Part shown: in pieces, positions 6,719-33,531 of the stretch
How positions within the stretch are numbered: the first letter of the stretch is position 1
How the letters are laid out: each line of letters starts with the position of its first letter
Origin: Fragilariopsis cylindrus CCMP1102
Taxonomy: Eukaryota > Bacillariophyta > Bacillariophyceae > Bacillariales > Bacillariaceae
Direction: 5' to 3'
NCBI GenBank assembly: GCA_900095095.1
Contig: FMBT01000291.1
Span: 744,001 to 808,000 of the forward strand
DNA: 64,000 bases
Position numbers and translations under genes: made by a program
Notes under the pieces: model-generated
Told to the model about the DNA's origin: nothing
Database searches by the model: none
Seen by the model: only the letters and a program-made list of their open reading frames with translations

Positions 6719-6933
6719 TTCCCGTGGTTGCAGGGGTGATTTTCAACACGGCTACAGCGCAACGCTTTTTTTTTCAACATGGCTACAGAGCGCGCTGTAG
6801 CCGTGTTGAAATTCAGCATGGCTAGAAAGAGCGCGCTGTAGCCGCGTTGAAATTCAGTATGGCTAGAAAAACAGACTGTAGCCGTGCTGAAATACGATAT
6901 GGCTACAGAGATTACACGTAGGAATCAACGTGT
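6719..6933 (+). repeat. Left terminal inverted repeat
   Basis: Pairs with 33318-33531 in opposite orientation; I count only a handful of differences. Internally built from about 45 bp sub-repeats, each carrying ggctacag or its complement ctgtagcc, so single strands can fold into local hairpins. Confidence 0.9.
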
Positions 6934-7379
6934 AATCAGTCCCGTAACAATTTAAGTCAAGTTGTCCTGCCCGCTGAGCGAAGTCTTCTCACAAAAACCC
7001 CAAAACCTTCACGGTAAGTCAAATAAATAATTTTTTGAATTTCCCGTGTCTGCTATGAGCTTCGACGACCGTGTTTGAGTGTTCAGTGTTCACAATAGCA
7101 TGTCAACAATTCATTAACATACCTTCGATAAGTCCACCTACATTGGATTCTAGCCTTTTCCATCCGTCAATCCTTAGCTTATTCTAAACGCCCTCCACCT
7201 GTAGTAGGGTAGCGTATTCTTCCATCCGTTATACCCTCATTCATTGTAAAGGATAGCTATCCATCTAGATCATTTGCCTTTGTCAATCATCCATACCGCC
7301 CTCGCTTGTGGTATAAGTAGACTGTTCCTACCCGTTCATCCATATTTCACACACTTGTAGTAAAGGTAACCTGCTAATT
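6934..7379. other. Subterminal spacer / 5' region of the Ulp1-like gene
   Basis: Non-coding, immediately inside the left TIR. Holds several copies of the element-specific spacer motif (ccatccgt, then tccttag or similar, then ttgtaaagg) spaced 60-90 bp. Likely contains the promoter of the gene starting at 7380. Confidence 0.5.
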
Positions 7380-10300
7380 ATGGTATCTACTCGCAGAGCC
7401 AACAGAAAAGGGGAGAAGGAAAAAGTGGTATCTAATACAGCAAGAACAACAAGAGCCGGAGTTTTATCGGGATCTCCCGTATCGAATTCTATCAATAATG
7501 ATTCGAATGCTAGGCGTTCTAGTCGGAAGAGAAGGAAATCTGAAAAGCAAGCTGCATTAGAAGAGACTGCTACTCGGAAGAAGAAGAAAACAATCCAATC
7601 GAAACCAACCTCCTCACCATCCCAACAAGAGATAGACGCAGCTGGTGGACTAGTTGATATTTCAATTACCGTCGCAGCAAGTGCACCGAGCGACGTAGCT
7701 ACTAAGTCTTCACCAGTGAACAGCAAAAGTCAACCTTCACCAGAGAAAAGCAAAAGTCAACCTTCACTAGCGAACAGAAAAGGTCAACCTTCACCAGCAA
7801 ATAGCAAAGGTCAACCTTCACCAGCAAATAGCAAAGGTCAACCTTCACCAGCGAACAGCAAGTATCAAGTTTCATTAGCGGAGAGCAAAGATCACTCTGA
7901 TATTGGAAAAACGAATAGCCTTGTTTCAAATAGTAGCGAAGACGAAGACTTTTTCCCAACTAAATTTACAGGCAGGTCTTCTCCTCCAGAAGACAACACC
8001 AACAATTCTAAAATCGAAAGCACCGAAGAAATATCGAGATTACGACAGTATACCATCTTTAGGTATTCGATTGGCAAGCATGTTCATGAGGGTGAATTTG
8101 AAGTCACATATAACCGAAGATATAGCTATCTAAAGATCCACCACGCTCCTGGTAAAACCAGGAGGCATCCGGTGCTTAAAGTTGACGTTGAGAGCGTCAC
8201 CGATACCAAATTCTTCATGAGTGATGCTTATGGCGAAGTCAACTTTGATGATTGCACTAAGCAAATGCGCATCGAAAGCTTTTGTTCTTTCAAAGTTCCT
8301 GTTGCAGATATTGAGCAGTTAGATTTCAAGACAAAAATTGACTTTCCACCTTCAGTTTCAGATACTACGATTCTGGTGATCGAGTTTGGGTGTTCTCGAG
8401 ATAGCTTCGATCTTCAACAAGATTTTGGAATTGAATTCAGTCGTATTAATAAAATTGTGTCATTCAAATGCATCGCTGCCCCGTTGTTGGATCATTTGGA
8501 GGGTTTGTATGAAAAACGAACAACAATTGATCCGAAAAAAAGGCCAAAGTTTACAGGCAACAAAAATAGTTCTGATGCACTCATATCTCGTCCTTTTGAT
8601 AGTGAAAAGATGAATCAGATAAAAGTGGCATGTGACCGGTCTGGCCTGGAAGAATTTGCTAACTGGGTGCCAGATAAGACGGCGAATAATGACCGACCGA
8701 TCGTTGTGAAGGTGAACAACTTTTGTGGGTTATTGGCTGGACAATGGCTAGACGATACTTTGGTTGATTTTTTTTTGATGATGGCTATATCAGATAGCAA
8801 TCGTGCTGATACTCATGTATTTTCGTCATATCTATATACCTCGTTGATGGGAGAAAGTTGGATATCAAAATCATCTACATTTACAAAAAAAATAGATATT
8901 TTCAAGAAGCGGGCGCTCTTTATTCCTATTGTAAAAAATTTACACTGGTCACATGTGGTCTTGCTTAATCTTGGGAGCATATCGCGTGAGGACAGCAGTT
9001 GTCCCTTAATGCCTATTTTGCTATACTTTGATTCGTTCGGTGGTGACGTGCGTAATGTCGAGAGTAGGATTTATTCATGGCTGAATGCAGAATGGAACCG
9101 CATTCATGGAAGAATGGGAGCGTTTTCTGCCAAAACTATGCATGCGCTCAGTCCGATTAGAGCGAGACAAAAGAATGGTTATGACTGTGGCATCTTCAGC
9201 TTGAAATACGCTGTTGCTACATTCAGAACGCTAGATAATCTTGTTGACTTTCCTATTCTGAAGGGAAACCCCCATGTCTAGATGAAGAGGGATTCAAGAT
9301 GCAGATTACTGACTCGGATCATTTCAAATTTGACCAGAGGTATGTTCACAAGATGCGGTCACAGTACAAAAAGTTTATTGAGCTGGTAGCAGCGCCTTCT
9401 ATCTCAAAAACAAAGCAAAAAGTCAGAAACAACTCCTCCAAGTCCTCAAAAGCACATGTAAGAATTAAGGTAGAGAATCACAGCAAGCAATCTTCGGCGA
9501 GATGTCTTACGTACGAGCATATTGGCTCCGATGACAATGATATTGGCTCCGATGACAATGATCAATCTCTTGCAAGTCTGAAGCATACTCATCCAAAAGT
9601 GAAGACTAATGATGTTAAAGAAAGTCAAGACAACAGAGTGTCTTCCTTCTCATCAAATCACCATAAGCGGCAGTCACTGGAATATGACTCTGGTAACAAT
9701 TTACATTCGGTCAGAATGGAACAATTGCTTCTTTCAACTAAGTATTCGAGGGAATTTGCTAATCTTCAAATTGTGAAAGCTTTGAGCGACGATTTAGATA
9801 GTTTGATTGGTCACGACGTGTGGAAAAGTATGAGTGAAGTCGAAAGACTTTCCCACGTTTGCAATAGAATTGCCGTAAGCGAAGGACGCGGAATACAAAT
9901 CCATCAAGTGGGTAGACAGCAAAACGAAGGACGCATGATGGAAACTCCTCCAGTTGATTGTAGCAAAGAAAGCAAAGGTTACATCATGAACGTTTGTCCC
10001 ACAGAAGACCGTAAAGTGTTGGCTCAACGAATGCAACAGAAATGTGGTGCACAGATTAGAAGCAAAGGTCTCAAAAACAAGAATATTAAAGTGAAATCAA
10101 TGAGAGGCGATTCAAGCAGTCTGCATACTATCGGCTACAGCAACAATAGCGTCGACGACGAGATTGATTACACGGATAATCATGTTTCCATCCCCCCACA
10201 GCAGAGAAAGAAAGGACCAGCTGTGTCTGCTCCTCGAAGGGTTGAAAGTGTCCTGAACAATAGCAACAAAGCTATGATGTCTCGTGCTGCAAATGCCTTT

Positions 10301-10690
10301 TATCAGAGACACAAGATTACAACTAGTACCAAGAATAATTGGCCAAAATTCCATGGCTTTTATGTTGTTTATAACGAAATTCAGCGAAACGATAAAAATA
10401 AGCCAAAATTAAAAGATATGTGGAGAGATAAACCTCAAGTGAGTATCCTCGGTATCGATAAAAAGCAAATCGATAGATTCAAGGAAGTCTTTAGTCCTAA
10501 CATCGATGAGAGTAAGTTTGATCTAATGTATACGGACGACCCAGATAAATTTGCCCGGCGCTTGAAAGAGGATGCTGATGGAAACATTCTTAGCCAAGGT
10601 GCCACGTTGTCACCGTCAAAGGCTTTTGACCAAATCCTCCAACAAAAAGACAGAAACAGAAACAAAGCAAATGACGGAATATCTCCTTGA
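7380..10690 (+). CDS. Ulp1/SENP-like C48 cysteine protease with long C-terminal extension (one frame break)
   Basis: Starts at the ATG at 7380. Residues about 1-110 are basic and include a 9-residue repeat (SKGQPSPAN type, DNA 27 bp unit at about 7723-7885). The Ulp1 catalytic domain spans about 440-640: His522 in LHWSHVV, Asp551 in YFDSFGGD, Gln597 and Cys603 in QKNGYDCGIFSLKYA. The full triad and oxyanion Gln are present, so the enzyme could be active on SUMO or a related modifier. The first frame stops at 9281. In the frame beginning upstream of 9299 the text continues with CLDEEGFK and FDQRYVHKMRSQYKKF, which is the normal C-terminal helix of Ulp1 domains. The break lies in a C5 run at about 9270 and fits one missing C. 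About 430 further residues, unrecognised, S/K/N-rich, end at 10690. First gene inside the left TIR, so probably part of the mobile element. Confidence 0.85.
7723..7885. repeat. 27 bp tandem repeat in the Ulp1-like gene
   Basis: About six direct copies of a 27 bp unit encoding nine residues (core aaaggtcaaccttcaccag). The centre copies are near identical and the ends diverged. Confidence 0.85.
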
Positions 10691-11734
10691 ATATACTCTA
10701 TAGAACGCAACTATTTATATTCCGGTAGTTCAATCGTAACAACAATAGAACATATACTTAGTTCAACATACATTTTCCTTTGCCATATCGATCTTAGAAT
10801 TTTTCACTTGCTTACACTATCTATTTGTCAAACCACCTTTGACGTCGAACCTGTCTTTTCCTTCACTTGTGTCGTATATAAACATTTCCATCCGTTAATC
10901 CTTCCTTCTTAACGTAGTGTACAATCTTCAAAGCGTTGTCAAACCTTCACCTATTGTAAAGGACATCAATCTCTTCTGTCGAACCAACATGTACCCTAAT
11001 TCAAAAATGATGCTTGAATGGGGAAGGTCAACTTTACCATGACAGATAAAAAAGACTGTGTTTGTTTACTATGAGAGAAGGTAGACTCGATGGGAAGGAA
11101 AAGGCAAGAAGGTAGTGTTCAATTGCAAGGGTAGAACTTTTGTACTGCTACTTCTATATGCATACATGTTCATGTGCTTGTGTCTGAAGATGCTCTCCCT
11201 CAATACTATTTGAACATCACTTCCATACAATCAATAATACTATAAGGAAAGATAAGGTTGCCTTTACTATGAGTGAAGCCTCGATAAACATTTATAATTG
11301 TGATATCAAATTTTAAATAATCAGCTCCCCTCGCGCGTAAATTTGAAATTTCAGTACTTTGAAAAAAAATGAATCTTAAAGATTTTTTTGTTGTCTTCGA
11401 CGATGAACAAGAGTAAATTTTTAACACATAAAAAGCAAGGAAAGATAAGCAACAACATATTGTTCATCGTGGACAACGAACTGATGAAAACACCAAGGGG
11501 GGGGGGGGGGTGTCCACAAATGATGATTTCGAAGTGTCCTGGGGTGATTTGAGCAATCATGATAGATGTTCTATTTCTAATTTTAGTAGAAGCAATGGGT
11601 TGGATTGTGAATGATGGAAACAAATAATTTCCCATGCCCTTCATTTCGATCGAATTTCAATTGAAAAGTGTATTAGAATTCTTAAAATAAGTGGTTGATT
11701 ATTATTTATATTATTAATACTGACAATGGTGGTC
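10691..11734. other. Spacer between the Ulp1-like gene and the small acidic gene
   Basis: About 1 kb. 10800-11000 contains the element-specific motif (ccatccgttaatccttcc; attgtaaagg). A G11 run sits at about 11500-11510. The ORFs at 11206-11644 on the minus strand are AT-rich, show no domain and I do not support them as genes. Confidence 0.5.
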
Positions 11735-12187
11735 TTAGTCGCGACGACGAAGACTCATCAAGCCCATCTTCTGGGAGAGCTGGTAGTCTTCCTCATACTC
11801 ATTGTCAATCTCGACATTAGGTAGTAGATCACTGACCTGATCTTCATCTTCGTCATCGTCATTCGAAGCGGCGTCTGGATCAACAGTACTAGCATCATCA
11901 TCATCATCATCATTCGAAGCGTCTGGATCAACAGTATCATCGTCATCATCATCATCAGCAGCAGCATCAGCATCTAAAGGAACTCGACGTTGTGGAAGAG
12001 GACTGGAGATATCTTCTTCTTCTTCTTCAATGGTAGGAGCGCCCTTGTCACGGATATGCTTCTTGATAGCATCGTTAATTAATGATTCAATGAATTCAAC
12101 AATAGGATTGTCGCCATCATTAGCAGCACCACCACCACCATCTTCATTCGATTCGATACTGATAGTAACGGAAAAGGATGTCTTCAT
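11735..12187 (-). CDS. Small acidic protein, unrecognised (150 aa)
   Basis: ATG at 12187. The N-terminal 55 residues look folded (FIESLINDAIKKHIRDKG helix). The middle is a run of Asp/Glu/Ala repeats (three DPDASNDDD-like units). The tail has NVEIDNEYEEDYQLS and ends in RRRD. It lies inside the TIR element and is transcribed away from the gene at 12652 from a shared palindromic promoter. Acidic domains of this sort occur in histone- or DNA-mimic and chromatin-binding proteins, but nothing here proves a function. The repeat runs at 11880-11960 are trinucleotide-based. Confidence 0.6.
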   Translation of the reverse strand: MKTSFSVTISIESNEDGGGGAANDGDNPIVEFIESLINDAIKKHIRDKGAPTIEEEEEDISSPLPQRRVPLDADAAADDDDDDDTVDPDASNDDDDDDASTVDPDAASNDDDEDEDQVSDLLPNVEIDNEYEEDYQLSQKMGLMSLRRRD

Positions 12188-12190
12188 TGT

Positions 12191-12560
12191 TTTTGTTGTT
12201 TTGTTTATTTTCTATTTATAATTTATGAGGATAACGTTACTGTAGTAATAATAATAAGAAGAAGAAGAATAATGATAATAATAAGTGAGTACAACAAGTT
12301 GAGTCGTTGTGTCGACGCCAACTTTCTTAAGAGAGAACCAACAGACAGATTCTCCACAAGGAGAGAAGCATTGCTAGAATAATAATAATTACTATTCTAA
12401 AAATGCTTCTCTCTGTCTGTTAGACGTCTCTTAAGAAAGTTGGCAACTCAACTCGACTCGACTCAACTCAACTCGTTTTATTATCATTCCTATTATTATT
12501 ATTACTACAGTAACGTTATCCTCACAAATTATAAATAGAAAACAATACAATACAATACAA
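12191..12560. promoter_or_regulatory. Imperfect palindrome (inverted duplication) forming a divergent promoter
   Basis: Two arms of roughly 165-190 bp are inverted copies around a centre near 12385-12395. Each arm carries, from outside in, tctatttataattt, gaggataacgttactgtag, an AT-triplet run, gttgagt, ccaactttcttaagaga, aacagacag and ggagagaagcatt or close variants. The outer ends reach the starts of the two divergent genes (ATG at 12187 minus, 12652 plus). A third partial copy of the outermost part follows at about 12585-12615. Each gene therefore has the same upstream sequence in the same relative orientation, which predicts co-expression. Confidence 0.8.
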
Positions 12561-12651
12561 GCACGACGACGTATTATTACTACTGTTATCTTCATAAATT
12601 ATAAATATAAAATAAGCAACAACAGCAACAACAAACACCATCACCAACACC

Positions 12652-13014
12652 ATGACCGACAATCGAATTAGAATGCAGTGTCCGATGTGGGAGAGATCTA
12701 GTCGGCCTGGTTTAGGATTTAACGGCAGTATTGCAATTGACTCCGTCTTGAAGAGGCTCCAAGTGTATGATGATATTAAGTGGCCATCAGTACCGTTCCC
12801 TGAATTAGTTATTTCACTTACTGGTGTTGGTGTTAACATCAGATTCAAACCGACCAAGAGCAAGAATAACAATCACAGGATGGGGAGGATGACTATCACA
12901 TCTTCTACAGCTACTGTATTCCCTTCTATTATTCATGCTGATGAAGTATTCACTTTCCATATTTCATTAGAAGACAGCAACACCATCATCGGTATGATTA
13001 ATTCATGGAATTAA
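12652..13014 (+). CDS. Small protein, unrecognised (120 aa)
   Basis: ATG at 12652, divergent from the acidic gene. Mixed alpha/beta composition without low complexity; features are a conserved-looking ELVISLTGVGVNIRFKP strand region, a basic NNNHRMGRMT patch and a hydrophobic end. I do not recognise a family. No signal peptide or TM segment. Because it shares the palindromic promoter with an acidic partner, the two could form a complex, but that is inference. Lies between the Ulp1-like gene and the nested copia element. Confidence 0.6.
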   Translation: MTDNRIRMQCPMWERSSRPGLGFNGSIAIDSVLKRLQVYDDIKWPSVPFPELVISLTGVGVNIRFKPTKSKNNNHRMGRMTITSSTATVFPSIIHADEVFTFHISLEDSNTIIGMINSWN

Positions 13015-13716
13015 AATCGAAATGAATTGCGTTGATGTATTGAATCGAATCGAATCATAAATCGAATCAAATCATAAATCTAATACTAGTATAATTACAA
13101 AGATAAAGATAAAGTTTATAATATAAATACTATTATTACTATTTATTTACAAAACGTATTTGAAATAAAGAAGACAGCGACGAGATGAGCCTATTACATC
13201 TTGTTCTATATTGAATATTAATACAAAAATAGCAGTAGCAGTTGCAATGCAAGAACGTTTCTGCCTTCGCTTATTTACCTTCTCGTCGTACACGTAGTCA
13301 TCTACATCTGTCTAGATCTCACTAATAGTAAAGTTAAACCTTCTCCATCCGCACAGAAAACCTTGATTGACGGACGGAAAAGAGTACCACAACGAGTGAA
13401 GTCAGATTAAACATGAATATTACTTTACTTGGGCATTAAGACAAGGATCGATGGATGGAATATAATTGCTTTACAATCAGTGCAGGATTGACGGATGGAT
13501 ACTTCGAGGGAAGGCAAGTTGACTGCAATGTGTGAAGGCCCTACAACTTGTACAGGAAAAGGAGTAGTTATAGTACTATATGTCCCCTTCAACGAAAACA
13601 ACAACGAAAACCTAAGGTAATATTATATCAGTCTACAATTGAACTACAAACTTGTTCATTATATTATTAAAAGAGGTGATAATATTAGAGTTCTGCGGAT
13701 CTGGAACTATATCTTC
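13015..13716. other. Spacer with element motif and start of minisatellite
   Basis: Includes an aatcgaatc/aatcataaatc microsatellite (13035-13085). At 13340-13560 the element spacer motif appears in inverted orientation (gattgacggatgga, tttacaatcag). From about 13635 the first copy of the minisatellite that received the copia insertion is seen. No gene. Confidence 0.5.
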
Positions 13717-13721
13717 ATAAT
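13717..13721. repeat. Target-site duplication ATAAT, left copy
   Basis: ATAAT directly precedes the left LTR and recurs directly after the right LTR at 25961-25965. A 5 bp duplication is the normal Ty1/copia signature. Confidence 0.9.
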
Positions 13722-13985
13722 TAATAGAGCGTTACAAGCAGTAAGTAGTCAAATAGGTTTAGACTAAAGTAGAAATTATGAGTACTAGCTATTGTAATGA
13801 GTCGGGTCTGTATCGTATCGTATATCGCAAGTGAATGCGATATCGTATATGAAAGTCAGTCCTGAGTGATTCTTGAGTCACTAGTATTCGGAGTCGTAGT
13901 CGATATCATGCGCGCAAGCGCGTGATATAATAACTTATATGAGATAATCAGAAGCCGGTACGCTATCTCCAGCTACCGTCTGTTA
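13722..13985 (-). repeat. 3' LTR of nested copia element
   Basis: 264 bp. On the plus strand it begins taatagagcg and ends ccgtctgtta; the ends are short imperfect inverted repeats (TAAtAGA / TAACAGA) rather than TG..CA. Contains internal palindromes such as gcgcgcaagcgcgtg and a duplicated gatatcgtat segment. Confidence 0.93.
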
Positions 13986-13998
13986 CTCCCCTTTATTT
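13986..13998 (-). other. Polypurine tract
   Basis: In sense orientation AAATAAAGGGGAG lies directly against the 3' LTR, the expected position for plus-strand priming. Confidence 0.8.
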
Positions 13999-14370
13999 CA
14001 CATAAGGTATTATTTGTATCGTATACAAGGATTCTCTTAAAAAACCTTTTTAGGAAAAAGAGAAAACTTTACTTTATCTTTTATCCAAAAGATATTTGAT
14101 AATTTGTTTGTTTGCTTGTTGTTTTCGTAGGCAGGTGGTATTCGCACATGGTGGGTTGTAAAATGTGTGAACAAAACTTAGAATATAATTTTGCAATCCT
14201 TTATATTTCTTCATTAACAATACAATCTTCATCATTGTATCATCCTTCAAAATATGTCGATTCTGGCAAAATTTATTTATCGTAATGGAGTATCACGATA
14301 TGTTGTATAATTTCTTTCTTCATTGTAATAAATTTTACAATGTTCAGATCTTCATTCACCGTAACACGAT
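13999..14370. other. 3' untranslated region of nested copia element
   Basis: About 370 bp between the RT ORF stop and the polypurine tract. AT-rich with several short attgta/tacaat inverted motifs. No ORF. Confidence 0.55.
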
Positions 14371-16719
14371 TTACGATGGTTCAAGATTCTTGTTTGTTTT
14401 CGAATGAGGGTTTCTTGTCTTCGAAGTAGGTGGTGTATAATGCCGATATGGTATTGGTGCATCTAGAATATCCACCGATTTGTCGTCTTTATGGGTATTC
14501 AGTTGACGAAACAGATATGGATGCGCTAAACGATGAAAAACACTTGGTCCTAGTGGTTTTGTTAGGATATCTGCGATGTTTTGTTCTGATCGGACATGTC
14601 CAAATCGAACAAAACCAGCAGCAATTGCTTCGCGTATCCGCATGATTTGACAAGATAGATGTTTCTTCTTGATCTTTGATGATGGTAGTGTTGTATTTAC
14701 AACCACTGATAAATTATCTCCAAGTAATTCACTTCTCTTTTCAACTCTTATACCAAGACATCTTAATTTGTATCTCATTTCAATGATTAGATCAATTGCC
14801 ATTCGAGCTGCAATCATTTCAGATCCAAATGTAGATGTTTCGACTGTACGTTGACGTTTTGAAACCCAAATAATTGGTGTGTTGTTAATTAGTAACAATA
14901 TACCTGTAACTGATCGACGTGTTACATTGTTTCTTGCATGATCAGCATCAACATACACAGTAAGTTTTACAGGATCACCATAAGGGTCTGGGGATTTTTC
15001 AGGTATATCTTCAATGGCATCCGGAAAGAATTCACTCCAATCACAATCACGATGAAATGTTGCAAGTTTTCTTCCTGGTGGATCAGAAGAATCGATTGTT
15101 AGCATGGCTCTGGGATGTTGTTTTAAGTATCCGAATATACGTTGTAGTGCTAGAAGATGACCTTCTCGTGGTGCTACTGTATATTGAGCCAAAGTATTGA
15201 CAGCAAAATGAATATCAAATCTTCCTAGTGTAACCATCCAATTTGCACTTCCAAGTAGTGAACGGTATTTTGATTGTTCTTTGGCAGAGATCAGTTTTGA
15301 ATTATCTAGCTCAGCATGATAAAGAGGGTCGTGTGGTACAGTAACTTTACGAAACGTAGTTTCACACATCCGTTCTAAATTTTCCATACAATTCTTGATA
15401 TATGTATGACTTGAAAGACCAAATTTTATATTATGTTCTTCCCATGTAGGAGGATATTTAACAACGTCACCTCCAAGGTAAAATTGTGGGTATCCAACGC
15501 CCTTCATCGTATAAAATTCTTCGAGATAATGAATAATTTTCTCTGGTTCTTTTGAAAAACACATTACGTCATCAACATATCGTGCAATATATTCATAACT
15601 TCCGTCAGCTGTTTTTCTCATCCATAGATCATGATCAGCTCTTGATGGTCGGAAGTGAATACGTCGAAGTTTTGCAGATAATGATTCATGGAAACGTGCT
15701 GCTCCAGTCTTCGTTCCATAAACTGATTTACTCAAGATGAGTCGTTTTCCTTCAAGTTCTGGTCCAAATTCTGGTCCAGCAATGATGAATAGTTTCTCCG
15801 TAGTAAATGATGTGAGGAAAGCGTTTCCAACGTCTCCCGCAACACATTTTAAATTATTCATTTGGGCCAATAAGAATCCCATTCGAATTGCTTCAATCGA
15901 TACGACAGGTGCAAAACAGTCTTCTTTATGAACTGGAGGAGATCTGTTACCATCAATAACTAATCTTGCTTTCCGTCTTCCATCGACTTTACAAGCAAAT
16001 ATTAGATGATATGGTACTCGTCTGTATCCTGGCGGTGTAGGCTCGCCTTCTTGAAGTGGTTTGAATGAGTTAAATTCATGAATTATTTGGTATAATTCTT
16101 TATCAATTGATTGTTTCCAAAGTAGATTTCCATTTGAATCGTCAACTAACTTTGATGATTTTGCGGATTTTGGTATTTCTACTCCAAACTCGTATTTCTT
16201 ACCAGTAATAACTGATGTTCGATAAGTTTGTATCATGGTTGTTAATGTTTTATCGGAATCGATGTATTTTGGTATCCATTCCCAACCAGGCTTATAAATT
16301 AAATCATTTTGATATGCATATCTAACACATAACCATGGATCGTCCATACGTAAATCATCAAGAGGAATATTTTGTTTTGGTGTGTTTTCATCAGGCCATT
16401 GTATTTTCATGTACACTTTTCGTTCCTCATCATCATGAAGATGTTGTACATGATGCGATAAGATAGTCTTCGGAGTCCAATGTGCAACGTCTGGATCCGG
16501 TGAAAACATATCATTCAGCTTGTCTAAGTAAGAGTGATATGCTCGTAATTCTTCAACATTATCAATCGGTTTCATTTGAATGTGTTGTACTTTTGGAAAT
16601 ACACTTTCAACTTCAAATCGAGATATCGGAGGTAATGCCGTAGTTGATAATGGTTTAACGATAGCAGATGATGTAAACATAATAATTCCTAGTTTTGCAA
16701 TGGTGTTTATACATTTCAT
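14371..16719 (-). CDS. Copia reverse transcriptase - RNase H (782 codon ORF)
   Basis: RT motifs: RRKARLVIDGN near residue 250, GDVGNAFL near 300, the SKSVYGTKTGAARFHE stretch, and the catalytic YVDD near 385. RNase H follows with VYVDADHARN (about 590), a downstream SEMIAAR stretch and a terminal NIADILTKPL. A roughly 50-residue hydrophobic segment opens the ORF (MKCINTIAKLGIIMFTSS). Its ATG overlaps the integrase ORF stop as ATGA (16716-16719). This could be a coupled stop-start or, as the frame shift also fits one missing base, an artefact splitting one polyprotein. No inactivating change seen in catalytic motifs. Confidence 0.92.
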   Translation of the reverse strand: MKCINTIAKLGIIMFTSSAIVKPLSTTALPPISRFEVESVFPKVQHIQMKPIDNVEELRAYHSYLDKLNDMFSPDPDVAHWTPKTILSHHVQHLHDDEERKVYMKIQWPDENTPKQNIPLDDLRMDDPWLCVRYAYQNDLIYKPGWEWIPKYIDSDKTLTTMIQTYRTSVITGKKYEFGVEIPKSAKSSKLVDDSNGNLLWKQSIDKELYQIIHEFNSFKPLQEGEPTPPGYRRVPYHLIFACKVDGRRKARLVIDGNRSPPVHKEDCFAPVVSIEAIRMGFLLAQMNNLKCVAGDVGNAFLTSFTTEKLFIIAGPEFGPELEGKRLILSKSVYGTKTGAARFHESLSAKLRRIHFRPSRADHDLWMRKTADGSYEYIARYVDDVMCFSKEPEKIIHYLEEFYTMKGVGYPQFYLGGDVVKYPPTWEEHNIKFGLSSHTYIKNCMENLERMCETTFRKVTVPHDPLYHAELDNSKLISAKEQSKYRSLLGSANWMVTLGRFDIHFAVNTLAQYTVAPREGHLLALQRIFGYLKQHPRAMLTIDSSDPPGRKLATFHRDCDWSEFFPDAIEDIPEKSPDPYGDPVKLTVYVDADHARNNVTRRSVTGILLLINNTPIIWVSKRQRTVETSTFGSEMIAARMAIDLIIEMRYKLRCLGIRVEKRSELLGDNLSVVVNTTLPSSKIKKKHLSCQIMRIREAIAAGFVRFGHVRSEQNIADILTKPLGPSVFHRLAHPYLFRQLNTHKDDKSVDILDAPIPYRHYTPPTSKTRNPHSKTNKNLEPS

Positions 16720-19172: not shown

Positions 19173-19201
19173 GTTAGTGTTAGGGCAGCAGGTATCGGTT
19201 T

Positions 19202-24177: not shown

Positions 24178-25696
24178 CTTGAGGTTTGTAGTTTTAGATT
24201 TAGGAATCAATAGTAAAACAAGGCTTTACGAAGCAGAAAAAGTCGTAAAGTTTTGCGAAGTTAAGCAAATTTGTTTTATGTCTTGAAAAAGTGATTATTC
24301 GGCGGTCGCAAAATCATCGAAATTCTAAAATAATTTTAAAAATTGTTGAATTCACTGTACTCTGTCGCGGTAAGTTGTTGTCTTCTCTCATTTTTCACGA
24401 TATTACGTTGGTTTGCCTTTGTTTGGAGCGTGGCAATCCAATCGTGTTGCTTCCGATTGTTAACAAGATGAGCTGTATCTAGCTGTACTCTTGCGTCAAT
24501 TCAAATCTGTATACGTTTCCGACTTAATACTTGCATCCGACGCGCGTGTCATTTTCAAATATTGTATACGTTTTTGATGATATTTTGCTGATACTTGCTT
24601 CCGATTTGTTGAAGGTCGTTTTTGATATCTTTCTTTGTTGTGATCTGGTTTTTAAACCAATCATGTGACGCAGAAATGATTGTCGTCAAATTAGAACAGG
24701 TGTAAGCCAATCAGAATCGATCAGATTCAGTCCCGATGGTGTTGAACTTGAAAATAATGAGAGTTTCTTAGAATTTAGAATTCAAATATCAAATAAGTGT
24801 CGTGCGAAATGATCGAAAAGTGTCTTCTCCTTGTTTTAATCGTTTTGAATGATCAATCGACGATGGTGATCAAGAAGATTTGTGATTTGTGAAGTTTTAT
24901 TCGGGTTTTACAATGGTATATGAATATTACTTTACTTGAAGAAGACGGTTGTTCAGTTTATACCAGTCAACGTGATCGGTAGAATGCTACGGTTCAGAGC
25001 AATGATCAGAAACGTTACCGTATTTTGCGAAAGCATTGGCGAATATGCTTAATCGACTTTTATATTATTACATCGCCATTCTTTTATATCTATGTTTATA
25101 TTATATTTCTATTGAAACCGGGTCTAATCGGAGTTTTTCATGTAAGGGGGGGGGGGGTTGTTTCGTATCCCAGTTTCCTCTGGGGATAATATTGTGTTCA
25201 GCTTTGTATCGGTTAGGCCGGATTCCTAACTTATCGGAAATCGATACAGTCCTATTAACATCGCCTATCTTCCTTATGATCGAAGGTGACAAGGTCTTTA
25301 TGTCTCATCATGGAAGAATGGATACGGTAATGTTAATTTTTAATGAGGATTCGTCGTCACTTGTGTGATTGCCACGAATCGTCCATAATAATAGCAGAAT
25401 GAGGGTAATTAAGTCTCACTCATAAGTAGAAGACGGTGTGCGTGAAATCCTTTCACTACATCAACTCCTGTCGATGATTACACAGATATTCAATATCAAT
25501 CAAATGTCGATCCGTTAGTTTGATGATATGTTATCCTGTCTTCAGCTTTCCTACTAGGATTCTCTCAAGGATCCTTGTTATTCATTTTAGCTCAATTTAA
25601 GTATTGTTCAAATAGTTACATTCCCACCTTAGTTCCTCTATAGTAGTCCCGAAGGACCACCATGGGCGAAAAAAAGGCAGATTGGGTCTGATAAAC
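24178..25696. other. 5' leader of nested copia element
   Basis: About 1.5 kb between the 5' LTR and the gag start in sense orientation. The plus-strand ORF at 25036-25368 lies antisense here and shows no family. A G10 run occurs at about 25146. No supported gene. Confidence 0.6.
25678..25696 (-). other. Candidate primer-binding site of nested copia element
   Basis: Directly inside the 5' LTR. The plus strand reads attgggtctgataaac, which resembles the 5' half of a tRNA anticodon arm (stem TGGGT, loop CTGATAA). There is no TGG start for the tRNA CCA end. This fits the half-tRNA priming known for Drosophila copia; tRNA identity not established. Confidence 0.4.
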
Positions 25697-25960
25697 TAAT
25701 AGAGCGTTACAAGCAGTAAGTAGTCAAATAGGTTTAGACTAAAGTAGAAATTATGAGTACTAGCTATTGTAATGAGTCGGGTCTGTATCGTATCGTATAT
25801 CGCAAGTGAATGCGATATCGTATATGAAAGTCAGTCCTGAGTGATTCTTGAGTCACTAGTATTCGGAGTCGTAGTCGATATCATGCGCGCAAGCGCGTGA
25901 TATAATAACTTATATGAGATAATCAGAAGCCGGTACGCTATCTCCAGCTACCGTCTGTTA
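25697..25960 (-). repeat. 5' LTR of nested copia element
   Basis: 264 bp, no difference from 13722-13985 found on reading. Followed by target-site copy ATAAT (25961-25965). Confidence 0.93.
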
Positions 25961-25965
25961 ATAAT

Positions 25966-26135
25966 CACCACTGCTGCCTTTTGTTGATTCATTTCTAGTC
26001 GTCACCTGTCTGGTTGAACTACATACTTGTTCATTATATTATTCAAAGAGGTGATAATATTAGAGTTCTGCGGATCTGGAACTATATATTCATAATCACC
26101 GCTGCTGCCTTTTGTTGATTCATTTCTAGTCGTCA
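25966..26135. repeat. Minisatellite that received the copia insertion
   Basis: Unit of roughly 115 bp (core gaggtgataatattagagt ... ctgctgccttttgttgattc). One copy is split by the retrotransposon (13635-13716 plus 25966-26010) and another is whole at about 26015-26135, abutting the 3' end of the IQ gene. Confidence 0.8.
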
Positions 26136-26140
26136 CCGGT

Positions 26141-28958
26141 CTAGTGCTTTCTATTGAAATTTGCTTCTTCCAATTTTTCTTCCTCTAGTGCTTTAACAAT
26201 TAAGATATTTTCATTACCTTTAGTACGGGGTCCAGTATGCGATCCATATTGGTTTCGTTTCCCCCAAACAGTCTCATAATTTTCTTCCTTCTCACATGCC
26301 ACTGCGTATCCTTTCCCAGTGCCGTTCATCATTTCTTTACCAATCTTGTGCAAGTACTTGCCTAACTTCTTCGGATTTTCCGCAGTAAATTCATCAGTTA
26401 GAACTGACATGACTTTTTCCGTCCTAGTCAACTCGTTCTTATTTTCATCCTGAATATTTCTTGATAGCTGAGTGATGGCAAACATACCAAAAATTTGAAT
26501 AGGGCTCGACTTTCGTTTTGCTTTTTCTGCAAATTGAGTTGTATGGCACAATTGATGTGTGTAATGATTTGCGAGATCAAACTGAGTTCGACACGTAACG
26601 TCCCGTCGTTGACGGTTTCCTGAGGGACGAATAGGTACTTTCCTGTTACCGCCGCTTTTTTTTGGCTTGTCGTCTTCATCATCCGAAAAGGCTACATCGA
26701 CCTTTCTCTTCTTCTTCTTTTTCTTTTTCTTCTTCTTCTTCTGTACGTCAATAATGGAGTTGACCTCAGAATCATCCTCTTCATCTTTACTGCCATACTC
26801 ATCATCATCATCATTATCATCAGGAATTCCAAAGCTGCTCTCCTCATCATCATAACCGCGAGTGCTTATTGCTGCCCCGTCTTCTTTCTCCGGAGGGGGA
26901 TCGTCTGTAGAACCGAGTTCCATGTCATTTCCGATCGATCTTTGTTGCTCGTACAACAACTCGTACAACTTCATTCCAGACTCAACCTGGTTTTTTTCCC
27001 AGTAAACAAAATTGTTATGATTGTTCCATACAATACAGAAAGTACCATCAGTCATAATGCCTTCAACACACCCGAATTTGATTTCATATGCATATTGTAC
27101 AGCAACGGATTTATTATGATATTTCATTCCAGCTTCGGCTCTCATCTTTCCCTTGACTAACTTTTCTTTGTTCTTCTCCTTCTCATTGGCTTCCTTCAGT
27201 GCAGCTTCGACTTCCTTCACTAAAGCAGCAGCCTTTGCAGCTTCGACTTCCTTCAATTCATCAACCTTCTTCTTCGCAGAAGCCATTCTTATTACAGACT
27301 GGACTTTAATTGCAGCTTCGGCTTGCTTCACAGCTTCGGCTTGCTTCACTAAAGCAGCAGCCTTCGCAGCTTCGACTTCCTTCAATTCATCAACCTTCTT
27401 CTTCGCAGAAGCCATTCTTATTACAGACTGGACTTTAATTGCAGCTTCGGCTTGCTTCACAGCTTCGGCTTGCTTCACTAAAGCAGCAGCCTTCGCAGCT
27501 TCGACTTCCTTCAATTCATCAACCTTCTTCTTCGCAGAAGCCATTCTTATTACAGACTGGACTTTAATTGCAGCTTCGGCTTGCTTCACAGCTTCGGCTT
27601 GCTTCACTAAAGCAGCAGCCTCCGCAGCTTCGACTTCCTTCAATTCATCAACCTTCTTCTTCGCAGAAGCCATTCTTATTACAGACTGGACTTTAATTGT
27701 AGAACGACGAATTGTTTTAAAAGAGTAGGTAGAGTAACCACGCCAAATTCGCTGAATCTCCGGAGATAAGTGCTTGACCGCAAGATCTACCCTTGAAAGA
27801 AGACCTCTTGTATATTTTTGAATAGTTTGGGCTGCGAACTTGATCACCATATAATTCATACGACACATATACATTCTGAAAGAGGCTTGTACTTTTGTCG
27901 CAGCTTTGGCTTCCTTCACTAAAGCAGCAACCTTCGCAGCTTCGGCTTGCTTCACAGCTTCGGCTTGCTTCACTAAAGCAGCCTCCGCAGCTTCGACTTC
28001 CTTCGCAGCAGTGGCAGCCTTTACAGCTTCGGCTTCCTTCTTCTTAGCAGTGTTACTGTTTTCTCCATCAGGTTCCATTATTTCAGCAAACTCCACCATC
28101 CAATCGTCCTCAGTAGCAGCCTTCTCAGTTTCCTCCAGTGCACCAGCAGCCTTATTCTCGTCAATGAACGTGACCCTCATGTAAGTGTCTTCAGCAAAGC
28201 CATTAAACTCACCCAAGCATTTGTCGTCCGATAGAACTATGTGTTCCGCATATGATCCAACTTCCAATGTTAAATCTTCGGCAGAGAGAAGGTCGGTAAA
28301 TTCCGACTCAATTTTTTTTTTTACATCCGATACAAGCGTTGATTTGCCAAGGGGGGCAACGATCGTCGCTTTCTTAATAGTGCAATATTGATCGTAGATA
28401 TCAACATTCAGAGTCATACTATTGAATCCTATCGCTCTAGTATCGTGTGTTGTTGTATCGTCTGGATCATAGATCCTTTTTTTGGTGCCACTTCGTCTTG
28501 ATTGACGACGAGTTGGTTGCACTACTGATAGAAGGAAGAAACAGAGATAAAAGTTTAGAAGAAAGAAAGGAAAAAGAATACAAATAAACAAACCAACAAG
28601 TACACATAAGTTAAGTAGAGCAATTTTTAGTTTAATTTACCTTCCTGCTGCTGCGAGGAGTAACTCTCTGCCGCAGATCCATCCAATCTCATGGGAGCAT
28701 TCGATGATCGATTTGATTTCCTTTGCAACCCTCTTGCCGTAGGTGTCGCCATTGTTATTTTGTCTATAAACTTCCTTTGTCAAGTGTGTTTTCCAATAAG
28801 GCAAACAATGAATTGTGTGCTCAACATATTCAGCATTATTTGTAGATCTTGCCTTCACGAAATATTCTTTTGGTTTTGCCTTCAGTTAGGGTACAATAAA
28901 TACAAACCACTCCGAAAGGAAGATTTGGCAATCCATTTAGCTCAACGGACAATCCCAT
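26141..28958 (-). CDS. IQ-motif / alanine-rich repeat protein, at least two exons
   Basis: Main exon 26141 to about 28524. After an acidic/basic N-terminal part come about 115 residues that look ubiquitin-like (IKKATIVAPLGKSTLVSDVKKKIE, then YMRVTFIDE). Next are A/E/K-rich repeats, IQ-like motifs (ATKVQASFRMYMCRMNY, AAQTIQKYTRGLLSRV, IQRIWRGYST) and four near-identical 43-residue units starting IKVQSVIRMASAKKKVDELK, then poly-Asp and poly-Lys runs and an unrecognised C-terminal domain. IQ motifs bind calmodulin. The 5' exon (about 28641-28958) ends at a GTAAAT donor (28635-28640); an acceptor ctatcag lies at 28525. The frame does not join exactly, and a T-run shift near 28865 is also needed, so single bases are probably missing. 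True start uncertain; ATG at 28958 chosen. Confidence 0.65.
27230..27700. repeat. 129 bp tandem repeat in the IQ gene
   Basis: Four copies with starts about 27237, 27366, 27495 and 27624, nearly identical at DNA level. Period 129 bp = 43 codons. The homogeneity suggests recent expansion or gene conversion. Confidence 0.9.
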
Positions 28959-29011
28959 ATTGTATATGTAGCTATTTGACAAGGAACTGTCTACGGACTC
29001 AAGCGTGACGG

Positions 29012-29195
29012 GTATCACTCTTCCACGGGAGATTGCCTCAACAGACACGAAACAAATAGGTAGCCTTCAATGGTCAAACACACGAAACGAATTTTTCAAA
29101 TTGTCACTCTTCCACGGGAGATTGCCTCAACAGACACGAAACAAATAGGTAGCCTTCAATGGTCAAACACACGAAACGAATTTTTCAAATTGTGC
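29012..29195. repeat. 88 bp tandem duplication upstream of the IQ gene
   Basis: Two copies starting tcactcttccacgggagatt at about 29012 and 29104, each ending near tttttcaaattg. It covers the region where the IQ gene start should be and leaves no clear in-frame ATG upstream of 28958. Confidence 0.85.
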
Positions 29196-29524
29196 TCCTT
29201 ATCTTTACAGACAGACTTTACAGACAGCACACAAACAAAGTTGTGTTACTGGGATAATCTTCCTTCACGTTGTGAGGAGAGAGATTTGGGAAAATGGGAG
29301 AGGGCTGGCGCGATTTTTGAGAATTTAGCTCATTTTTGTGACATTATTATTTTAGTCAAAGTAGTCGAAATGTTAGGTGAAGGTACAATTAATTGCAGAG
29401 CTGAGATGTGCTGCCTGTACTGTCAACTGTAGTTCTTAGCTTCACAACAAACAAAGAACAACTCCGGCGATGGCAATGGCGAAGGCAATTTTTTCTTGCT
29501 GTCAAATACAAAGGATATACAACA
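29196..29524. other. Divergent promoter region between the IQ and RING genes
   Basis: About 330 bp. No repeat or RNA recognised. The open frame of the RING gene extends into it (from 29408) but only with a GTG. Confidence 0.45.
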
Positions 29525-30706
29525 ATGAAATGTACATTATGCAGAAATAATTGTGACGAAAATAGCAGCTTCAAAATGATCCCTTGCAAGCATATCGTTT
29601 GTGCAAGCTGCATGGTGAACAGTTTGATAATGAAAAAGCGGTTCGAATTGGTATCGTGTGTAAACTGTGGCGTGGAAACAACACACCATATCCACAAAGC
29701 CTTGAAAGTGAAGCACAATGGCGAAAAATTAAACAAAAATAAAGATCCTTTTCGCCATTTCGGTAGTTTACCTATTGAAGAACAGAAGGGGAGGATGCTT
29801 GTTAGCGTAATTGCACGTCCAAGGACTGGTTCTGATGTCGAAAAACCTCTCACATTGTTGGCAATGATTGATGACCAGGACGGCGCAGTTGACAAAAACG
29901 ACGAGGTCGAATTGATTAACATACTAAGTCTTCTGCGGAGTTTTGTACTATCCGGTGCAATGAAGAAAGAGAAAGAGAACGAAAATGAAGATGAAGAAAC
30001 GATGAGTGCCTTTCTTTGGAAAAGGCATGTGTTTGCTGATGATCGACCTGCAACAAAATATTTCTACGCATTTTGTATGGGAGGAATAGATATCGAAAAG
30101 GATAAGAAAATAGCAAAAGGAGATAGAGAAGTACGGTCTAGAATTCTTGCAAATGGTATGATTTTAGATATAGTGAAGAAATTGGTAGATAAGTTTAAAA
30201 CGATGCCATTCCAACGGATGCTTGGCCAGTATTGTTCAACAATTCCTAATTCATCCAAATTACAGGATTTGTTGAGTAGCGTCCGATTGTCAGTGCATCG
30301 AACAACCACACGTGATCACCTAGCAACTAAAGCCATAGAACTTGTTCAGGAAGGGGTCAGTCTGGATTTTAAAGGTTTTGCCGCTCTTGTTGTTGATAAC
30401 GTTGACTACACTTTAACGATGGGGAAGGATCATTGGACGCACACAATGATCGAGGATAATTCAGAAGACGATCTTAGGAATGATGGGGCCTACGAATGGG
30501 ATAAAAATGACGGAAAACTCTGGGATGATTTAATAGAAGAAGAAGGAGGAGGAGAGGAAGGAAAAGAAAAGCTTTTTTCTCGAGTTTGTGACGTGAATGA
30601 CAGAGATTGGCTGCGACTCTCAGATTATGAAATAACTTTTATCGATACCATCAAAAATTGCCCTGACTTACCTGGCGCCAATGATTGTAGGGCATTAGAG
30701 GAGTAA
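29525..30706 (+). CDS. RING-finger protein of the TIR element, first of two same-frame ORFs
   Basis: ATG at 29525 preferred over the upstream GTG because the RING starts at once: CTLC at residues 3-6, CKHIVCASC and CVNCG give a C3HC4 pattern. RING fingers usually act as E3 ubiquitin ligases. The rest (about 330 aa) is unrecognised but includes LVVDNVDYTLTMGKDHWTH, resembling the DN-D-x-GK-H block of transposon-associated DUF6589-type proteins (weak, from memory). The TAA at 30704-30706 is followed in the same frame by open sequence into the ORF at 30737, so both may be one protein interrupted by a nonsense codon or a skipped intron (the local text gagtaag resembles a donor). Confidence 0.6.
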   Translation: MKCTLCRNNCDENSSFKMIPCKHIVCASCMVNSLIMKKRFELVSCVNCGVETTHHIHKALKVKHNGEKLNKNKDPFRHFGSLPIEEQKGRMLVSVIARPRTGSDVEKPLTLLAMIDDQDGAVDKNDEVELINILSLLRSFVLSGAMKKEKENENEDEETMSAFLWKRHVFADDRPATKYFYAFCMGGIDIEKDKKIAKGDREVRSRILANGMILDIVKKLVDKFKTMPFQRMLGQYCSTIPNSSKLQDLLSSVRLSVHRTTTRDHLATKAIELVQEGVSLDFKGFAALVVDNVDYTLTMGKDHWTHTMIEDNSEDDLRNDGAYEWDKNDGKLWDDLIEEEGGGEEGKEKLFSRVCDVNDRDWLRLSDYEITFIDTIKNCPDLPGANDCRALEE

Positions 30707-30736
30707 GAAGATTGGACAGGCGCTGGTACAACCCCT

Positions 30737-32425
30737 ATGAATCTTGGTGTTAGGCTCCAAGCACCTTCTCGTAGTGATCGAATGAAGCAGAGTGATGTCA
30801 ATAATGGCTTGAATCCAAACGAAATGGATTTTTACCAAAGAAATCGGCTTATATTGCAGCCGCCTTATCATTCTAACTTGGGCGAACTTAGTACAGTTAT
30901 GTCGATTACAGATGCTGCGGTACGCGCATTTGACCGATGGACACCCCCTGCTGACAGTAATACCAAAACACTGCAAGGATTGATTCATGCTTTTTGCGCC
31001 GACGGAGGCCCAACTTATCTTTTTGTAGAAGAAAAGATAGCAAGGGAGGCAAAAGGCGACCATTCTTATGATAAGGTTGAGTGGTTTTCTATGGCCTTTC
31101 ATTTGATGATCAATTCAATACGGAATCTTAATTCCAAACACAGCAAGCAAGTTTATGTCGCTTTTACTCGACGGTGGCGTAAAACAACACAGAGACTGGA
31201 CTGGGCACTTGCTTGTCCGGACCCAAAAGATATTTTCAATGAGTTATATCAGTACAAGGTTGCTCTTACTCGGAATCTTTGTGATAATGTCGACTCGGCT
31301 GATAATCGTGTCATTCATGATCATGCTATCGCACGAGCTAAGAAATACCCGATTGTTCATTTAATTCTAATTCACTTGAAAATGACGACAATTATATTAA
31401 TGTTGAAAGATTCGTGGAGATCTGGTGATCATGGTGACGTTCCACAATACCTCACTTGTCTTCGCTATCTCATTCGTCTGGAGGCTTCATCCAACGCAAG
31501 ACATTATCTGCCCATGAACATTCATTTTTTGAAGTGGTATGAATGCGCCAGTACTTGTTTGAAGAATATTTTTGAGTACTATCTTTTTACAAAGGTAACA
31601 GCTAACGGGGAGCTTATGCCAGGTGATCTTTGCATGGAAAAGCATGTTGGTGATGTGCGATACATGTACGGGAAAAGGGGCTTTAAGAATATGGCAGCAA
31701 GGTTCTTAACGGAAGTTCCAAGATTAAACCAAATTATCGGCCGATATTCCAATAAGTTTGGAGATGATTTGGAAAGAGAACGTTTACCATACAACAACAG
31801 AGTATATGTTCATGGGGAACCTTATATCAAGTCATATAACTATGCACAAGAACTTAATTTGTTTGGAGATGGTCCACCGAATGTCGTTAACTATGACGAT
31901 CTTATAAATTTGAACACCAACGAAACTATGTCGAGCAGGATTCTAAAAACATGGAGCAATTCTGGAGAACGTGCCAAGCAAAAATTCATGGGCAATAATC
32001 CAAGCTTAGCTTGCTACAGAACAAAACAAGGTCAAGTAAAGGAGGATTTAGTTTCTGACAGGATCAAATATACGTCCATGGATTTCGATGAGTTGACCTC
32101 ATTAAAGCTTAAGATCACAAAAGAAGAAATACTGGATGAACTTAAACTGATTAGTGCTTGGATGGATGACATGGACCACGATTTTCTTAATATTGCCAGG
32201 TGTACAAATAGCAGTAGCAAACCGGTACTCATCGAGGCTTTGGTAGAAGCTCGTGAAATATATTTTAAAGACAATCACGATGCACTTGAAGAAAGAATAG
32301 AAAGTTGCGAGCATCATGAGTTTGAAGAGACACTAACTACGGAAGGAAACAGGGAAACGGAAATAGAGAATGGGGAACGATTTTATAAGTTACATCCCAA
32401 TGCATCGGTCCGTAATTCATTATAA
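30737..32425 (+). CDS. Large ORF of the TIR element, likely continuation of the RING protein (562 aa)
   Basis: Same frame as the preceding RING ORF, with only ten codons between its stop and this ATG. Mixed helical protein with GGPTYLFVEEK, DKVEWFSMAFHLMINSIRN and a long helical region (HLKMTTIILMLKDSW; SNARHYLPMNIHFLKW). Conserved-looking W-H and D positions recall the second half of DUF6589-like transposon proteins: an acidic substrate-like strand, then the FHL block after a conserved tryptophan. That assignment is tentative; it is the best candidate in this element for the mobility protein. Ends 900 bp before the right TIR. Confidence 0.6.
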   Translation: MNLGVRLQAPSRSDRMKQSDVNNGLNPNEMDFYQRNRLILQPPYHSNLGELSTVMSITDAAVRAFDRWTPPADSNTKTLQGLIHAFCADGGPTYLFVEEKIAREAKGDHSYDKVEWFSMAFHLMINSIRNLNSKHSKQVYVAFTRRWRKTTQRLDWALACPDPKDIFNELYQYKVALTRNLCDNVDSADNRVIHDHAIARAKKYPIVHLILIHLKMTTIILMLKDSWRSGDHGDVPQYLTCLRYLIRLEASSNARHYLPMNIHFLKWYECASTCLKNIFEYYLFTKVTANGELMPGDLCMEKHVGDVRYMYGKRGFKNMAARFLTEVPRLNQIIGRYSNKFGDDLERERLPYNNRVYVHGEPYIKSYNYAQELNLFGDGPPNVVNYDDLINLNTNETMSSRILKTWSNSGERAKQKFMGNNPSLACYRTKQGQVKEDLVSDRIKYTSMDFDELTSLKLKITKEEILDELKLISAWMDDMDHDFLNIARCTNSSSKPVLIEALVEAREIYFKDNHDALEERIESCEHHEFEETLTTEGNRETEIENGERFYKLHPNASVRNSL

Positions 32426-32529
32426 ATGTAGAGTTACTATGTGTGTTGTGTGTGGCGTATTCATACCATTTTCAGTTTATTTTTGTTACTAGTAACTTGA
32501 TCTCTATTCGACTAGTACAATCAGTCGAT

Positions 32530-33210
32530 CCTTCACTCGTTGCAAACTCTGTCAAACACCTTTTCCTTCGTCACTTGTCAATCCCGCCTTCAACATTTCT
32601 ATCCATTGATTATTCTTTTATTGTAAAGGTCATTCATCTGCGAATCCTTCACTCGTTGTAGGATAGGATTTTCAATGCGTTGATCCTTCGCCAAATGTAA
32701 AGGACCCCCCCACCTTCTGTCGAACCACCTTTGCCTTTTTGTCACTTGTCAATCCCGCCTTCAATTGTGTCATAGGCAAGCCTTTTTTATCCGTCGATCA
32801 TTCCTTCATTGTAAAGGTCTTTCATCTGCGAATCCTTCACTCGTTGTAGGATAGGATTTTCAATGCGTTGATCCTTCGCCAATTGTAAAGGACCCCCCCA
32901 TCTTCTGTCGAACCACATTTTGCCTTTTTGTCACTTGTCAATCCCGCCTTCAATTGTGTCATAGGGAAGCCTTTTTTATCCGTCGATCATTCTTATTTCA
33001 TTGTAAAGGTCATTCATCTGCGAATCCTTCACTCGTTGTAGGATAGGATTTTCAATGCGTTGATCCTTCGCCAATTGTAAAGGACCCCCCCATCTTCTGT
33101 CGAACCAATCCCGCCTTCAATTGTGTCATAGGGAAGCCTTTTCTATCCGTTGATAATTCTTATTTCATTGTAGAGGTCATCTATCTGCGAATCCTTCACT
33201 CGTTGTTGTA
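32530..33210. repeat. Subterminal tandem array, about 190 bp period
   Basis: About 3.3 copies; the marker gcgaatccttcactcgttg occurs at about 32640, 32829, 33020 and 33187. Each unit contains ttgtaaagg twice, a C6-7 run (gaccccccc) and tcccgccttcaa. The same short motifs occur at the other spacers of the TIR element. No coding potential. Confidence 0.85.
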
Positions 33211-33317
33211 GATTCAGGAGCTCCACGCATGTCATTGTACATCGTTCTAATGATGATGTTTAATAATTGTAGTTTTTAATTAACGACAGACGGACGTTAT
33301 GAAGCTCTAGTACTAAA

Positions 33318-33531
33318 ACACGTTGATTCCTACGTGTAATCTCTGTAGCCATATCGTATTTCAGCGCGGCTACAGCCTGTTTTTCTAGCCATACTGAATT
33401 TCAACGCGGCTACAGCGCGCTCTTTCTAGCCATACTGAATTTCAACACGGCTACAGCGCGCTCTGTAGCCATGTTGAAAAAAAAGCGTTGCGCTGTAGCC
33501 GTGTTGAAAATCACCCCTGCAACCACGGGAA
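33318..33531 (-). repeat. Right terminal inverted repeat
   Basis: Reverse complement of 6719-6933 with few differences. The outer end on the plus strand is gcaaccacgggaa. Flanked outside by catagtaaac, with no clear duplication of the left flank (gtagctaca) beyond CA. Confidence 0.9.

Follow-up and report, generated by a model that had tools for sequence, protein, structure and literature searches.

A 26.8-kb DNA transposon with a candidate RING-finger transposase in Fragilariopsis cylindrus

We analysed a 64,000-nucleotide stretch of the genome of Fragilariopsis cylindrus CCMP1102 (assembly GCA_900095095.1, contig FMBT01000291.1, positions 744,001 to 808,000 of the forward strand; hereafter the window), in which an earlier note had proposed a giant mobile element between inverted repeats. 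Positions 6720-33530 of the window, 26.8 kb running from TCCCGTGG to CCACGGGA with both ends read directly, are a terminal-inverted-repeat (TIR) DNA transposon of class II: the inverted repeats, a flush target-site duplication and an empty site were all found. The case for a transposon is firm because the genome holds both an empty allele and a second element of the same design. In fuller terms, the unit is very probably a DNA transposon present in one haplotype, with a transposase, probably of the DDE type, encoded by a RING-finger gene, and with captured fragments of other genes. While the element itself is of a known kind, the presumed transposase could not be placed, by its sequence, in any superfamily known so far.

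The borders were determined from the terminal repeats and the short duplication that surrounds them. The left inverted repeat (6720-6933, plus strand), which starts with TCCCGTGG and contains 41-bp self-inverted units, and the right inverted repeat (33318-33530, minus strand) were detected by both the repeat search and BLAST. The repeat search paired 6714-6773 with 33477-33536, and 6767-6933 with 33318-33484, at 97-98% identity. BLAST aligned 6719-6933 with 33531-33318 at 98.1% over 215 bp (E 1e-101), and thus bears out the near-perfect inverted repeats of about 215 bp that the note had placed at 6719-6933 and 33318-33531. Within the exact borders, the arms measure 214 and 213 bp, and three substitutions plus one indel separate them. 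The 4-bp duplication ACAT lies flush with both arms, at 6716-6719 on the left and 33531-33534 on the right, as assigned from the sequence and the empty allele. The repeat folds as a single strand with a z-score of -8.9, and none of 200 shuffled sequences folded as well. When the nested retrotransposon is subtracted, the element is about 14.57 kb long.

Does the genome also contain this site without the insertion? The genome searches covered 67.9 Mb in 818 contigs. The left flank (window 5900-6715) matched two places: itself and, at 100% identity, contig C530 (53,829 bp). In the alignment to C530, window 4400-6717 matches at 99.9% and is followed directly by window 33554-35003 at 96.9%, and the next 2000 bases of C530 match window 35004-36999 at 99.0%; the comparison covered 5.8 kb. 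Because both flanks are directly joined there, C530 represents the homologous region lacking the 26.8-kb insertion, and it is probably a contig of the alternate haplotype. The presence of the element on one contig and its absence from the other demonstrate mobility, and the single mobile unit supposed in the note is thereby confirmed within the same genome. The identity of the flanks between the two contigs shifts at the insertion point, from 99.9% on the left to 96.9% on the right.

A second element, built in the same way and sharing a gene with the first, is located at C66:76506-88713. This 12.2-kb element carries a homologue of the RING gene between its own inverted repeats, which match over 224 bp at 99%; when the borders are set at the TCC tip, the repeats measure 223 and 221 bp and are one 2-bp indel apart. 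The duplication here is AACT, at C66:76502-76505 and 88714-88717. The TCC tip is common to the two elements. The C66 repeat is also strongly self-inverted, with a single-strand fold z-score of -11.3 and none of 200 shuffles as good, and a tandem array lies just downstream of the RING gene in both elements (window 32548-33206; C66 locus L019:8164-8723).

These observations bear on the view that the window repeats are merely an old inverted-repeat pair enclosing host genes, with no transposon involved. Each arm was found once, as this view would have it: the genome search with the arms returned at least four matches, all within the two arms and including their internal self-inverted matches, with no further copy. 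Similarly, the search with the C66 repeat returned four matches, all of them its own two arms. However, nothing of the interior is present in the empty allele (barring an assembly error at this site), the 4-bp duplications are flush with the repeats, and the C66 element is analogous, so that the host-gene view is hardly credible. The note would have abandoned the transposon if copies of the repeat had turned up singly, and no lone arms were found in the genome search. Its other counter-sign, synteny of the internal genes in relatives lacking the repeats, did not emerge either, in searches whose only eukaryotic genome was this one.

Which protein mobilises the element? The candidate transposase is encoded at 29525-32425 (plus strand, counted from the first ATG), as identified by the open reading frame (ORF), the Pfam match and the homology to C66. 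It consists of an N-terminal C3HC4 RING finger and a body of about 900 amino acids (aa), with one in-frame TAA. The note had proposed a RING ORF and a neighbouring large ORF as a pair forming the mobility protein. The two are in fact one gene, a single frame interrupted by this one stop codon, while their proposed role has gained strength. Only one other match was found in the genome, an uninterrupted frame of 1057 aa on C66 that is 24-25% identical and spans both parts; both genomic matches of the RING gene sit inside TIR elements. We then compared the proteins of the two elements, using the ORFs of at least 50 aa from stop to stop, with the copia insert excluded and the C66 element cut at the locus border. 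Seven matches had E values of 0.05 or less, and the two halves of the RING gene accounted for E 2e-8 and 4e-13. The best of the others, at E 1.2e-4, aligns the IQ protein with a 222-aa ORF over 52 aa and is read as charged low-complexity sequence, and the remaining four lie at E 0.010-0.049. Since no other protein gave a convincing match between the two independently inserted elements, the RING protein is likely the transposase, an identification that is circumstantial and rests on genetics. In the two-sequence alignment, all eight RING ligands are invariant (C11, C14, C29, H31, C34, C37, C53 and C56 in the C66 numbering). Asp319 (in DN), Asp539 (in DG), His572 (in FH) and Glu753 are also conserved in both proteins, and are plausible candidates for the catalytic residues.

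Alternatively, the RING protein might be passenger cargo, and an unrelated transposase from another genomic locus might move the element in trans. Mobilisation can occur with nothing more than long inverted repeats, the window copy of the RING gene is broken by a stop, and the Ulp1 and IQ matches described below make the uptake of cargo likely. On the other hand, the same gene is present in both independently inserted elements and has no third match in the genome, and because their repeats are unlike in sequence, it is unlikely that a single foreign transposase acts on both elements. We thus consider the passenger scenario quite improbable, and retain the RING protein as the candidate transposase.

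Several observations weigh against our interpretation. First, no second copy of the window element or of the C66 element was found in the genome; the other copies with the identical repeat and gene order, for which the note had hoped, did not appear in the search. Second, the repeats of the two elements have no clear similarity beyond TCC, and the empty allele of the C66 element was not found, as a search with its left flank returned three matches, namely itself and two of about 40 bp. Third, the junction predicted from the filled allele is GCT-ACAT-AGTAAAC, and C530 reads GCT-ACTGT-AGTAAAC, so that the empty site carries ACTGT instead of ACAT. This may be an ordinary allelic difference, which is plausible because the right flank is about 3% divergent nearby, or an excision footprint. 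Fourth, the window copy of the gene contains its in-frame stop, and the RING matches are under the Pfam cut-offs (E 0.0017 for the window ORF, 0.0039 for the read-through protein and 2.7 for the C66 protein). Fifth, no known transposase profile in Pfam matches the candidate up to E 5, and the sequence search of the PDB with a two-sequence profile returned 12 matches, all to the N-terminal RING (E 0.075-0.9); the C66 core gave none, and the window ORF gave a single unrelated one. Sixth, Pfam also gave DUF6589 (PF20231), which is matched by the C66 protein alone at E 0.12, or at 0.059 without the N-terminus, with 11.4 and 12.5 bits against a cut-off of 27. Finally, the conserved residues are weak evidence, because only two members are known and they are 25% identical.

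The observation in the note that no standard transposase is visible therefore holds in the Pfam and PDB sequence searches, and NCBIfam and PHROGs gave no match for the candidate either. The weak DUF6589 match involves the C-terminal part of the profile and is absent from the window protein. A search of the whole genome with this profile returned no match, as did its 14 controls. DUF6589 is a family of unknown function, and none of the papers searched names it. Scans of viral and prokaryotic contigs with 2 to 6 short peptide patterns per scan detected no relatives; distant ones could escape such scans because only short patterns were used.

The RING finger raises the question of whether the elements are distant transposons of the Chapaev type (CMCT: CACTA-Mirage-Chapaev-Transib). 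Chapaev transposons produce 4-bp duplications and have CAC tips; the tips here are TCC. In addition, the first ATG of either frame precedes the first RING cysteine by only 2-10 residues, so that a Chapa domain could be accommodated only if an upstream exon exists. Besides the lack of a transposase profile in Pfam, no RAG1 or Transib chain was among the PDB matches, in searches that could draw on two diverged members. The combination of a RING-bearing candidate transposase and a 4-bp duplication does speak for Chapaev. PMC4411706 (2015) reports RING fingers resembling that of RAG1 from two subgroups of Chapaev, and from no other transposable element known at the time. A retrotransposon gag protein that contains a RING finger is reported in PMC3630058. 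Taken together, a Chapaev affiliation appears unlikely. Chapaev, Transib and RAG1 nevertheless resemble the present elements in having a RING-bearing recombinase in some members (PMC4411706), a short duplication and terminal inverted repeats, and Chapaev and RAG1 are the best functional parallel. The TCC tips, the long self-inverted repeats and the cargo set the window and C66 elements apart, and no sequence relation was detected.

The KDZ (Kyakuja-Dileera-Zisupton) group comprises eukaryotic DNA transposons that are also able to carry extra genes, among them TET/JBP genes according to PMC12730594. The same paper gives duplications of 8 bp (Zisupton and Dileera) or 7 bp (Kyakuja), in contrast to 4 bp in both elements here, and no Pfam match to the group was obtained. 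Among the titles and abstract openings of the transposon literature, we recognised no published description of the element, although a Repbase entry may exist.

We propose the following scheme for the RING-gene transposon. The element would move as double-stranded DNA, presumably by cut and paste rather than by copying. First, the transposase encoded at 29525-32425 would bind the terminal repeats, which are long and self-inverted, and might bind the subterminal spacers as well. It would then cut at the TCC tips and join the ends to the target with a 4-bp stagger, which would generate the 4-bp duplication. A DDE-type nuclease probably makes up the protein body. By analogy with what is reported for RAG1, the RING at the N-terminus may serve as a ubiquitin ligase that targets either the transposase or host factors. 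The element would have acquired the Ulp1 and IQ fragments, and it also holds the 1.8-kb dispersed repeat and the copia retrotransposon. The window copy is probably now non-autonomous.

The two elements perhaps represent a new superfamily. As a tentative definition, to which we would not yet commit ourselves, such a superfamily of eukaryotic cut-and-paste transposons would combine a RING ubiquitin-ligase finger fused to a nuclease unrelated to the known ones, long hairpin-forming repeats, a 4-bp duplication and TCC tips. Its members would also trade gene fragments, a SUMO-protease module among them, with giant MULE-like elements of their own genome. If this is a second, apparently unrelated RING recombinase, it would suggest repeated recruitment of ubiquitin ligases by transposases, and it would provide a system in which the reason could be tested. 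The presence and absence alleles, the intact reading frame on C66 and the Ulp1 and IQ fragments shared with other loci also point to large protist DNA elements that acquire and move genes.

Next, we investigated the cargo. A Ulp1/SENP-like (Peptidase_C48) ORF occupies 7317-9281 from stop to stop (plus strand; Pfam, ORF and BLAST evidence). Its catalytic domain matches Peptidase_C48 at E 1.1e-12 and SENP2 at E 2.7e-10, and the SENP2-matching stretch includes LHWSH, FDS and QKNGYDCG, which we take to be the His, Asp and Cys motifs of the protease. A segment on contigs C83 and C306 shares 97% identity with window 7974-9399. Relative to the C83 copy, a 1-bp frame break follows position 9271, and the alignment to C83 suggests that the next ORF (9248-10690, plus strand) continues the protein beyond it. 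The two ORFs are thus probably one gene, 7317-10690. ORF 9248-10690 itself has no Pfam, PHROGs or NCBIfam match, and its part past 9399 has no other match; window 9400-11377 matched nothing in the genome besides itself among the 40 of 51 candidates scored. Sequencing errors could also account for the single-base frame break, as well as for the poly-T indel of the terminal repeat.

On C83, a 1493-aa ORF that matches Peptidase_C48 in three stretches ends with the shared segment, and the adjoining ORF matches MULE at E 0.0055 and Jiraiya at E 0.003, both under the cut-off. These ORFs lie, together with several further large ORFs, in a 29.6-kb MULE-like element (C83:295232-324845) with 64-bp inverted repeats at 95% identity and an exact 10-bp duplication, GATGTTAAAC. 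C306 holds a partial copy of this element, in which long blocks are 99.5-100% alike and the sequence past the right end differs. The Ulp1 segment, at 97% DNA identity, is what the window and C83 elements have in common; the 10-bp duplication, the other repeats and the weakly MULE-like ORF distinguish the latter. None of the 9 window ORFs scanned matched the MULE transposase domain. The segment was probably captured by the window element from a MULE-like element or its kin.

The note had pointed to the Ulp1-like protease as a known companion of some eukaryotic DNA transposons, and such a working role was not supported here. The protease has no match in the C66 element by ORF comparison, it contains the frame break, and it is a near-copy of a MULE-like element segment. 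Moreover, between the window and C83, 40 substitutions in 1426 aligned bases comprise 29 protein-changing and 11 silent ones, close to the neutral expectation of 29-32 protein-changing (dN/dS 0.7-1.0, p 0.58), a comparison that is weak at 40 substitutions and does not identify the drifting copy. A role of Ulp1 in the mobility machinery is accordingly unproven. A further Ulp1 locus on C477 is 32% identical to the window Ulp1, and no inverted repeats were listed within the 50 kb inspected around it.

The protease also calls to mind the Ginger1 transposons, which, according to PMC2836005, have a Gypsy-type integrase, 4-bp duplications, 40-270-bp repeats, Ulp1, TGTNR tips and CCGG/CCGT targets. 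The repeat length, the duplication length and Ulp1 fit the window element. However, none of the 6 scanned element ORFs, all lying outside the copia insert, contained an integrase domain, the tips are TCC rather than TGTNR, and the targets are ACAT and AACT rather than CCGG or CCGT. Since Ulp1 is, in addition, a separate and probably captured ORF, an assignment to Ginger1 is highly improbable.

The second probable capture involves an 831-aa IQ-motif ORF at 26141-28636 (minus strand, stop to stop; Pfam IQ E 1.4e-16). It shares a stretch of 269 bp, at 94.8% identity, with sequence located at an ORF of 1544 aa on contig C221, and the IQ repeats were presumably captured from a gene like the latter. 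At the 3′ end of this ORF, one copy of a tandem 131-bp repeat served as the insertion site of a Ty1/copia-type retrotransposon, which is nested at 13722-25960 on the minus strand. Its identification rests on RVT_2 (E 6.4e-20), on long terminal repeats (LTRs) that match over 267 bp with 1 difference, and on a 5-bp duplication, ATAAT. The LTRs of this 12.2-kb element read TAATAG...CTGTTA, and an ORF upstream of the reverse transcriptase contains a PTM/DIR17-like Tudor domain (E 6e-7).

The dispersed repeat spans about 1.8 kb (11384-13151; genome search and BLAST), with a palindromic core at 12188-12563 and a D/E-rich 158-aa ORF at 11735-12211 on the minus strand. It has at least 98 matches in the genome, including itself, with 40 of 51 candidates scored. 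Four copies on contig C72 are 79-80% identical, and other longer matches are 67-87% identical. The C72 copies lie about 10.4 kb apart, which suggests a larger tandem array there. An 87-bp match between window 13065-13151 and C66 was considered as a sign of DNA kinship between the two elements, and was rejected because this stretch is the end of the many-copy dispersed repeat. As for the five gene loci plus a later retrotransposon in the note, the retrotransposon is real and five loci are too many, because the RING pair is one gene, the Ulp1 pair is probably one, and the 158-aa ORF belongs to the dispersed repeat.

The spacers contain the motif ATTGTAAAGG, which was chosen by a screen, with four other motifs counted alongside. 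It was counted 7 times in the element and is absent from the rest of the window, and it lies always on the plus strand and in spacers adjoining element genes (7243, 10953, 32620, 32808, 32882, 33000 and 33074). The first position lies in the left subterminal spacer (7100-7300; sequence and motif count), and five of the seven lie within one tandem array, the right subterminal spacer array of about 190-bp units (32548-33206, plus strand; repeat search, BLAST and motif count). Two of the four other motifs (CCATCCGT and ATCCGTC) also occur outside the element, and the shortened form TTGTAAAGG does so once. The recurrent spacer motifs of the note are thus real and, for ATTGTAAAGG, confined to the element within the window, although they are partly tandem and not all exclusive to it. 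ATTGTAAAGG could serve as a transposase-binding or promoter motif. Outside the element, window 57716-61627 contains, on the minus strand, a second copia-like polyprotein ORF of 1303 aa with integrase and reverse-transcriptase motifs recognised by eye.

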